NCBI RefSeq assembly: GCF_017495225.1
Contig: NZ_JAFEIG010000007.1
Location: forward strand, 62,001 to 126,000
Length of the DNA: 64,000 nt
Reading direction: 5' to 3'
Origin: Daejeonella sp.
GTDB lineage: Bacteria > Bacteroidota > Bacteroidia > Sphingobacteriales > Sphingobacteriaceae
Below, piece by piece: positions 50,170-53,160 of the stretch. The first letter of the stretch is position 1. Each line of letters starts with the position of its first letter. The notes under the pieces were generated by a model. It was not told where the DNA came from, ran no database searches, and was given only the letters and a program-made list of their open reading frames with translations. The translations under genes and the position numbers were made by a program.

Positions 50170-51141
50170 ATGATTTTAGTCACCGGCGCCACCGGTTTTT
50201 TAGGTTCAGAATTAATCAGACAATTAATCTTAAAGGGCGAAAAAGTCAGAGCAATCAAACGCGAGTCCTCTATTTTGCCTGCCCTCCTTAAAAATGAGAC
50301 AGAAATTGAGTGGTTTACTGCCGACATCCTCGATTATTTTGCCCTAAAAGATGCTATGGAGGGCATTAGCAAGGTATATCATTGTGCCGCCTTTATTTCT
50401 TTCGACCCTGCAGATAAAAAATTATTGAGAAAAGTAAATGTGGAAGGCACCATCAATTTACTCAATGTAAGTATGGAGATGAATGTTTCTCGTTTCTTGC
50501 ATGTAAGTTCGGTAGCCGCTCTTGGTGAAAGTAAAAAAGAGGAGCTGATTACGGAAAATGAGCATTGGGAACATGGTCCGAACGCTAGCAATTATTCCAT
50601 CTCCAAATATGAAAGTGAGATGGAGGTTTTTAGGGCTAATGCCGAGGGCTTAAATACTATTATCGTTAATCCATCGATTATTATAGGGAAAAATGCGGGC
50701 AATCAAGGTAGCGGACAGCTCTTTGAAACCATACAAAAAGGACTAAATTATTATCCTGGAGGCTCTTTTGGCTATGTTGACGTGGAAGATGTAGCCAAAT
50801 CCATGATTTTATTAATGGACTCCGATATTTCGGATGAACGATTTATAATCAATGCCGAAAATTGGAGCTACCGCGATTTTTTTACGGAAATTGCCGATAA
50901 TTTCGGTAAAAAACCACCACAAATTGCCTTGATGCCATGGATGATGAATCTTGCCTATTTAGGAACTCGATTCTTATCATTTTTTACAGGCAAAAAGCAT
51001 GGACTTACAAGTGAAACCGCATCAAGTGCATTCAAAAAAAGTAATTTTTCTAATGAAAAAGTCAAAAAGACCTTAAATTTAGAGTTTAAACCTATAAAAC
51101 AATCAATAAGCGAAATTTGCCATAATTTTCAAACCCATTAA
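50170..51141 (+). CDS. NAD(P)-dependent extended SDR (epimerase/dihydroflavonol-reductase-like)
   Basis: A 323-aa Rossmann enzyme. The cofactor motif is VTGATGFLGSELIRQL; the catalytic YxxxK is YSISKYESE, preceded by HVSSVAALG with the Ser. It resembles dihydroflavonol-4-reductase-like and NAD-dependent epimerase families. Substrate unknown. The serB-like gene starts 16 bp downstream, so they are probably co-transcribed. Confidence 0.85.
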   Translation: MILVTGATGFLGSELIRQLILKGEKVRAIKRESSILPALLKNETEIEWFTADILDYFALKDAMEGISKVYHCAAFISFDPADKKLLRKVNVEGTINLLNVSMEMNVSRFLHVSSVAALGESKKEELITENEHWEHGPNASNYSISKYESEMEVFRANAEGLNTIIVNPSIIIGKNAGNQGSGQLFETIQKGLNYYPGGSFGYVDVEDVAKSMILLMDSDISDERFIINAENWSYRDFFTEIADNFGKKPPQIALMPWMMNLAYLGTRFLSFFTGKKHGLTSETASSAFKKSNFSNEKVKKTLNLEFKPIKQSISEICHNFQTH

Positions 51142-51157
51142 TAGAAATAACAGTCCC

Positions 51158-52450
51158 TTGAAGCAGTTTTACATCATAGATTTCGATAGTACCTTCACTC
51201 AGGTGGAGGCATTAGATGAATTAGCCCGAATTTCTCTAAAAAATCACCCAGATAAGGAAAAAATCTATAAAAAGATTGAAGACTTAACCAATTTAGCGAT
51301 GGAAGGCAAAATGTCGTTTAGGGAGAGTTTGAGTGGTCGCGTGCGACTTTTAGAAGCGAATCGCAGTCATTTAAAAGAGCTAATTAGTGTTTTAAAAAAG
51401 AAAGTTTCTTCCTCATTCTCAAGAAATAAAACATTCTTTAAAAAGCATTCTGATTCAGTACTTATAGTTTCTGGGGGATTTAAAGAATTTATCATTCCCG
51501 TGGTGCTCCCCTATCATATTGCCAAAGAAAATATTTATGCCAATACCTTTATTTTTGATGACAATGACCAAATTATTGGCTATGATGAACAAAACCCACT
51601 TTCCAATGAAGGTGGTAAAGTTACTTTACTAAAGGAGCTCGACCTTAAAGGAGATATTTATGGAATTGGGGATGGGCACTCCGATTTTCAGCTAAAAGAA
51701 TTTGGCATGATCAAGAAATTTTATGCCTTTACCGAAAATATTGAGCGTAAAACTGTAGCCGAAAAAGCCGATCATGTTACTCCCAGCTTTGATGAGTTTT
51801 TATACGTAAATAATCTACCTCGAGCAATTTCATATCCCAAAAACAGAATTTTATGTCTTGTAATTGGAGAAGTGCCAGTTGAAGCTATTCAAACACTAAA
51901 AAAAGACGGATTTTCAATTCGACATAAGAAAAGTTTTGAAGAAAAATATGTAGCCGATGTGGGGATGATGCTACTTGCTAATGGCGAAATTTTAGAACGT
52001 GAAAAATTAGAACGTGCAGTAAAATTGAAAACTATTGGCTATTTGGGAAATAGTGAGCCTAAATTATCGCATGGACTCTGCACTGATATGGGAATTGTAA
52101 TTTTTGACGATCCTAAGAAAAATCCTAAAAACCCACAGCTTATTGCCAAAAGAATGATCAATTTCATTAATCATGGGCATACTTATGTGAGTGCAAACTT
52201 CCCGAATTTACAATTACCACGTATTGTGGGTGCCCACCGACTCATTCATATTCACAAAAATATGCCGGGCATCATGGCTCAAATAAATAGCGTATTTGCT
52301 AAGCATCACATCAATATTGTAGGTCAATACCTCATGACAAACCCAAGCATTGGGTATGTAATTACTGATGTAAGCGAGGAGTATGATAAAAATGTTTTAA
52401 AAGCACTGAAGCAGATTGATCATACGATAAAGTTTAGGATACTTTATTAG
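51158..52450 (+). CDS. Phosphoserine phosphatase fused to remnant SerA (ACT domain)
   Basis: A 430-aa protein with three parts. Residues 1-220 are a HAD phosphatase: Asp8/Asp10 in DFDSTFTQVEALD, VSGGF, and GDGHSD, all as in SerB. Residues about 225-350 resemble the first part of phosphoglycerate dehydrogenase in Bacteroidota SerB-SerA fusions (SYPKNRILCLVIGE). Residues 354-430 (RLIHIHKNMPGIMAQINSVF) are the SerA ACT domain. The Rossmann NAD-binding domain between them is absent, and the join is in frame. The start is TTG 51158, since no ATG lies before DFDST. Likely a phosphatase with an allosteric serine-binding domain. Confidence 0.82.
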   Translation: MKQFYIIDFDSTFTQVEALDELARISLKNHPDKEKIYKKIEDLTNLAMEGKMSFRESLSGRVRLLEANRSHLKELISVLKKKVSSSFSRNKTFFKKHSDSVLIVSGGFKEFIIPVVLPYHIAKENIYANTFIFDDNDQIIGYDEQNPLSNEGGKVTLLKELDLKGDIYGIGDGHSDFQLKEFGMIKKFYAFTENIERKTVAEKADHVTPSFDEFLYVNNLPRAISYPKNRILCLVIGEVPVEAIQTLKKDGFSIRHKKSFEEKYVADVGMMLLANGEILEREKLERAVKLKTIGYLGNSEPKLSHGLCTDMGIVIFDDPKKNPKNPQLIAKRMINFINHGHTYVSANFPNLQLPRIVGAHRLIHIHKNMPGIMAQINSVFAKHHINIVGQYLMTNPSIGYVITDVSEEYDKNVLKALKQIDHTIKFRILY

Positions 52451-53160
52451 AAGGAAAAGTTTGTCGGTTGTCAGTTGTCAGACTGGCGACATTTGCTACC
52501 CGGTGGCTGAGGTTCTCGAAGCCAAAAAAGAGTTATCAGTTGTCTGTTATCAGTCATCAGGCAAACGACATTTAGTGAACTGGTTTGTCCTTTCTCTTTG
52601 CTACTTGATCATTGCTCTAATCTCCGTAATCACCCTAATCAAATAAATCATCGTTCAGACATGTTAGTTGGTTAGCTGGTTCGTAGTTAGATGGTTAGAA
52701 ATTAGTTTCAAACAGACTTCAATTCTAAATTAATCACAAAGCCTGTCTATAATCCTTATTCTTTTATCCTTGCTCTAATCTCCGTAATCAAACTAATCAA
52801 ATAAATCATCGTTCAGACAATTTATTTCCTAGTCACCGGTAGCTGAGGTACTCAAAGCCAAAAAAGAGTTGTCAGTTGTCTGTTATCTTTATCAGGCTAA
52901 AAACATATGGAGAACTGGTATTTTGTCCTTTCTCTCTGCTCCTTAATCCTTGCTCTAATCTCCGTAATCACCCTAATCAAATAAATCATTGTTCAGACAA
53001 TTTATTTCTTAGCCACCAACGGCTGAGGTTCTCGAAGCCAGACAAAGGTTATCAGTTATCAGTTGTCAGTTATCAGGCTGGACGGATCTTATCAGTTACC
53101 CGCTGGCTGAGGCTCTCGAAGCACGTTAAAGGTTACCTTTTATCCTTCTTATTTCCGCTT
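52451..53160. repeat. Repeat-dense intergenic region upstream of ilvE
   Basis: Three copies of a block around TTGCTCTAATCTCCGTAATC begin at 52612, 52770 and 52950, each followed by ATAAATCATCGTTCAGACA. Four copies of a GGCTGAGGTTCTCGAAGCC element and several GTTATCAGTTGTCAGTTATC runs are mixed in. Reading frames in it (52461-52646, 52876-53172) are not credible genes. The ilvE promoter lies at its right end. Confidence 0.88.

Follow-up and report, generated by a model that had tools for sequence, protein, structure and literature searches.

The window analysed here is a stretch of 64,000 nucleotides from a Daejeonella genome. The gene under study lies on its forward strand and codes for a protein that joins a HAD phosphatase to the substrate-binding domain (SBD) and the ACT domain of SerA. 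Its features are as follows:

51158..52450, + strand: whole gene, HAD phosphatase followed by SerA SBD and SerA ACT domain (open reading frame, 430 aa)
51170..51802, + strand: HAD-IB phosphoserine phosphatase domain, aa 5-215 (TIGR01488; structural match to 6hyy; residue invariance)
51836..52117, + strand: first piece of the SerA SBD (SBD1), aa 227-320 (alignment, hhalign, structure)
52118..52135, + strand: deletion joint, aa 321-326, with about 195 residues missing compared with the fusions of about 630 aa (alignment, PDB sequence search)
52136..52228, + strand: second piece of the SerA SBD (SBD2), aa 327-357 (PDB sequence search, structure)
52229..52447, + strand: SerA-type ACT domain, aa 358-430 (PF22629, 51 bits; residue invariance)

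The frame begins with TTG and ends with TAG. ATG is absent from the 16 in-frame codons upstream of this TTG, and in a relative (locus L024) the frame opens just one codon ahead of the aligned start; therefore, the start of the window gene is fixed by comparison. Antisense to the gene there is no listed open reading frame of at least 80 aa, and stops are abundant in the one frame that was read. The upstream neighbour (50170-51141), which we take to be a NAD-dependent epimerase/reductase-like gene, ends 16 bases before the window gene. An epimerase-like gene of this kind is found in all 24 examined loci outside Chitinophaga/[Flexibacter] that encode the same short layout, and in 23 of them it is adjacent. 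Downstream follows ilvE, and the region between it and the window gene contains imperfect direct repeats (52461-53150; units of 86-128 nt, spacing 158-180) with TTATCAGTTGTCAG-like runs. A scan for promoters and terminators gave signals at or below chance, and the neighbourhood revealed no link between the window gene and serC-serA.

Domain layout and relation to SerA

The HAD-IB phosphatase model TIGR01488 covers residues 5-179 with 60 bits (cut-off 45) and is the sole NCBIfam model that the window protein matches above cut-off. At the other end residues 328-430 correspond to positions 308-410 of the NCBIfam SerA model NF008759, and in a PDB sequence search residues 329-430 match SerA chains with an E-value of 2e-23. 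The same search aligns residues 224-326 weakly with SerA 4-112. Since the SerA match continues from 4-112 directly to 308-410, the region of about 113-307, which is the NAD-binding domain, must be missing, and a Pfam search of the window protein with PF02826 gave no match. This means that the order proposed in the first-pass annotation, with a HAD phosphatase, a SerA substrate domain and an ACT domain but no NAD-binding region, is confirmed. A sequencing or assembly artefact is ruled out by the identical architecture in 191 of the 201 genomes sampled from the family Sphingobacteriaceae, whose members live in soil and water.

An AlphaFold2 model was obtained from an alignment of 61 sequences (mean pLDDT 92, pTM 0.85). 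Its residues 227-430 superpose on E. coli SerA 7-410 over 203 residues at 1.7-1.8 Å (Z 26, VIA-align). Compared with this type II enzyme (1psd) the SBD-ACT half shows 30% identity and has kept the serine-site residues, whereas the NAD-binding domain and the substrate arginine are lost and a HAD phosphatase stands in front. In the PDB alignment the window protein does not retain, as such, the Gly-Gly hinge of the E. coli enzyme. The Pfam model of the SBD (PF00389) fails to match the SBD of the window protein; an alignment restricted to short forms finds free SerA in hhalign with an E-value of 5e-6 over 99 columns (HAD control 0.35). In SerA the NAD-binding domain stands between the two SBD pieces, which in the window protein are placed next to each other. 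The earlier description of a “diverged half” of the SerA substrate domain was thus right about its SerA origin and wrong about the half, because both discontinuous pieces are present according to alignment, hhalign and structure. As a member of the SerA family the window protein possesses the SBD and ACT fold and lacks the NAD-binding domain together with the catalytic Arg, Glu and His. Because the SBD is interrupted by the inserted NAD-binding domain, removal of the latter would leave a complete fold, which may explain why the deletion was tolerable. An unrelated domain in the middle region is ruled out by the alignment with full fusions, by hhalign and by the structural superposition.

Short and full forms in Bacteroidota

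Relatives with the full dehydrogenase, which the first-pass annotation had mentioned for Bacteroidota, do exist. They comprise about 630 aa and were detected 25 times in a search of the phylum and at four loci (L068-L070 and L073). Full SerB-SerA fusions such as that of Pricia antarctica (L070) have the identical domain order of HAD, SBD and ACT and retain the NAD-binding domain that the short form is without. They share 41-46% identity with the short form over HAD and SBD1 and 46-61% over ACT. For 39 short and 19 full forms the identity between both groups is 53% in HAD, 28% in SBD1, 42% in SBD2 and 60% in ACT, and most of them carry “SYPKNRI” or “SYPKSRI” where the SBD begins and diverge beyond it. 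In all 39 short forms the equivalent of Arg60, the substrate arginine of the SBD, is replaced by A, G or D, and those of Arg240, Glu269 and His292 have gone with the NAD-binding domain. In contrast, all 19 full forms have kept these four residues as well as GxGxxG.

Phylogenetic reconstruction of the HAD part was based on 79 rows (51 short, 22 full and 6 unfused forms) with midpoint rooting, and a few rows have long branches. The short forms make up one group (support 98/97) that adjoins the full fusions L085 and L086 and is nested among the remaining full fusions. The C-terminal tree with its 104 columns also unites the short forms (support 99) and resolves poorly within the clade. The alignment with full-length fusions, suggested earlier as a way to place the deletion, yields a clear border, and the nested clade supports an origin by deletion. 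The simplest reading of these sequences is a single deletion in a full fusion. The longest branch in the HAD tree belongs to the HAD gene of genome G556, where this gene and a SerA gene (frames of 235 and 412 aa, respectively) are adjacent and unfused, an arrangement that resembles a pre-fusion stage. HAD-only genes of f24 genomes (L136 3460-4182 and L137 3523-4185, frames of 221-241 aa) fall inside the fusion clade and are perhaps the result of a second, separate loss of the entire SerA half.

Within Sphingobacteriaceae the short form was found in 22 of 25 genera, and among the matches listed all short forms reach residue 430 in one open frame. The ten family genomes without the gene have all kept SerA. 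In the small-genome genus g11 (G010, G033, G049, G060, G070 and G080) free SerA is kept and the phosphatase is absent; no TIGR00338 match at E 0.001 was obtained in these six genomes. Outside the family short forms occur in Chitinophaga and in one f2 genome (G462), and the HAD tree places them among Sphingobacteriaceae at two positions. The Chitinophaga loci L056-L058, L060-L062, L064 and L066 all fall within Sphingobacteriaceae in that tree. The Chitinophaga short forms are probably products of transfer between families, and the two separate placements, including that of G462, suggest the same process.

As synonymous sites are saturated, most dN/dS values are undefined, and pN/pS and ratios between parts were used in their place. 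In all short-form groups tested pN/pS is at most 0.2 for every part. The distance ratio of SBD1 to ACT amounts to 1.89 in short forms versus 0.93 in full forms and that of SBD1 to HAD to 2.58 versus 0.69. Given this fast divergence, part of the SBD in short forms may be under weak constraint, and its combination with low pN/pS would fit an arm that has no substrate to bind and must still fold. One could also regard the protein as a neutral remnant of an accidental deletion which selection has yet to remove, the fused dehydrogenase being redundant in the presence of free SerA. With a single ancient origin, retention in so many genera of the family and low pN/pS in all parts, this is hardly credible.

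The phosphatase half and the rest of the serine pathway

In the HAD half the nucleophile D8, D10, the substrate residues E17 and R61, S105, K154, D172 and D176 were assigned, and none of the catalytic or substrate residues checked varies among the 39 short and 19 full forms. The HAD motifs I-IV (DxDST, S, K, D...D) are likewise present in every short form. E17 and R61 correspond to the substrate-binding Glu and Arg of the phosphoserine phosphatase (PSP) from M. jannaschii (E20 and R56). Residues 1-226 of the model superpose on a structure of human PSP that contains serine and phosphate (6hyy) over 209 residues at 2.2 Å (Z 25.5). With the SerB model TIGR00338 the window protein scores 59-62 bits, below the cut-off of 144, which marks the enzyme as a diverged SerB; this cut-off describes one subfamily and is not reached in 7 of 14 control genomes either. 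No second full-length SerB domain was found in the window genome, its two other matches being partial and situated in frames of 858 and 868 aa, and therefore the window protein most likely performs the last step of serine synthesis. For a Pedobacter strain the part of the GapMind study that deals with it (PMC7311316) lists a gap for DapE only and none for SerB.

The low SerB score could also mean that the HAD half hydrolyses something else, histidinol phosphate for instance, and that a different phosphatase makes serine. Annotated phosphoserine phosphatases elsewhere have been proposed to be histidinol-phosphate phosphatases, as stated in a section of PMC5764234. Nevertheless, the equivalents of the serine-specific Glu and Arg are retained in 39 of 39 short forms, the HAD domain is fused to SerA in relatives and the genome is without another full SerB domain, which makes such a change of substrate quite improbable.

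It had been suggested to look for an intact SerA elsewhere in the genome, and one was located on another contig (L004), where serC, serA and a further gene stand in a row. SerC matches TIGR01364 above cut-off (474 bits). SerA comprises 316 aa without an ACT domain and stays below the cut-off of TIGR01327 (304 bits), because only the first 301 of 525 positions exist. Free SerA occurs in 195 of the 201 family genomes and, apparently without ACT, in 185 of the 191 that have the short form; the six exceptions are assemblies that are 60-92% complete. Such a free enzyme would thus make the fused dehydrogenase dispensable. Among 25 genomes with full fusions free SerA was present in nine (all f4) and not found in the other 16 at E 1e-40, a threshold that the fusion of G271 itself failed to reach. 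G462, which is outside the family, has no free SerA of the family type and instead a serC-serA pair with a SerA of 389 aa and a weak ACT. Type III SerA is described as free of serine feedback regulation in the pertinent part of a review (PMC6300728).

The SerA-derived half as a putative serine sensor

The ACT domain contains H366, N368 and N386 as putative serine-site residues. They are equivalent to His344, Asn346 and Asn364 of E. coli SerA and invariant in 39 of 39 short and 19 of 19 full forms. According to the sections of PMC6300728 on the E. coli enzyme these three residues bind serine, and serine between two ACT domains rotates the SBD-ACT unit relative to the NAD-binding domain. We consider the window protein to be probably a phosphoserine phosphatase under serine feedback control, whose sensor was inherited from a fused SerA that lost its NAD-binding domain. 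Starting from an ancestral SerB-SerA fusion, loss of this domain would have left a phosphatase half that dephosphorylates L-phosphoserine and an SBD-ACT half without dehydrogenase function that would dimerise via its ACT domains. L-Serine would bind at the ACT-ACT interface, and the SBD may act as a rigid arm through which the movement reaches the phosphatase and reduces its activity. Without the NAD-binding domain the SBD-ACT unit could shift only against the phosphatase. If the first-step SerA is a free-standing, ACT-less enzyme of type III, the SerA-derived serine sensor would then sit on the last step. The feedback proposed in the first-pass annotation is thus backed at the level of sequence and fold by the invariant serine-binding residues.

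Alternatively, the SBD-ACT half might merely join the subunits of a phosphoserine phosphatase, with neither effector binding nor regulation. The fast divergence of the SBD in short forms agrees with this, as does the remark in one part of the above review (PMC6300728) that extra domains of these dehydrogenases (PGDH) are not always functional. However, pure dimerisation would not need serine-contact residues that are invariant in every short form aligned, and we regard mere joining as rather unlikely. Two further options involve free SerA. The SBD-ACT half could be a pathway-wide sensor that slows the phosphatase attached to it and, through direct contact, also free SerA (perhaps SerC as well), so that first and last steps would answer to a single sensor; this is very unlikely. 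The co-occurrence of ACT-less free SerA with the short form would fit a detached regulatory subunit that acts on free SerA in trans. This is likewise very unlikely, since the dimer interface in the NAD-binding domain of SerA (PMC6300728, in part) is lost, free SerA offers no ACT as a partner, both genes are not neighbours in the window genome and free SerA is found in nine full-fusion genomes as well.

Returning to the feedback-controlled phosphatase, the earlier view that such a logic is not usual for SerB goes too far. L-Serine inhibits SerB2 of M. tuberculosis (PMC10564941, in the part concerned), the title of PDB entry 5jlp places serine at the ACT domain of M. avium SerB2 and two other Bacteroidota genomes encode ACT-bearing SerB. 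Mycobacterial SerB2 (5jlp, 3p96) likewise combines phosphoserine phosphatase and ACT. It has two N-terminal ACT domains, as a portion of PMC4270767 states, and no SBD, whereas in the window protein HAD starts at residue 5 and one single C-terminal ACT of the SerA type sits on the SBD arm. The ACT-ACT-SerB proteins of Bacteroidota (L144 of G482 and L145 of G461) are similar in serving the last step and bearing ACT; in contrast with the window protein, their ACT domains (ACT_6 and ACT_PSP_2) are N-terminal. Serine-regulated SerB in mycobacteria and ACT-bearing SerB in other Bacteroidota are already known. New are the SerA-derived sensor, its C-terminal position on the SBD arm and the excision behind both. 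An open-access literature search found no paper on the window protein or on a SerB-SerA fusion.

The short form is a conserved natural case in which a catalytic domain was removed from inside another domain and the allosteric half was kept on a different enzyme of the pathway. Relatives offer a series for comparison, from adjacent unfused genes (L135) via full fusions (L085) to the short form in the window. If an assay agrees, an entire bacterial family has shifted the feedback control of serine synthesis from the initial reaction to the final one. A function is also suggested for proteins that automatic annotation would probably call HAD-IB phosphatase only. Other fusions are of a different kind. 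Those described for oomycetes in parts of PMC2705460 and PMC5715807 join SerA and SerC, unlike SerB-SerA. The glycerol-3-phosphate dehydrogenase of Dunaliella (DsGPDH, 6iuy) includes a PSP-like HAD, which model residues 1-220 match with Z 20.3, and represents a fusion distinct from SerB-SerA.
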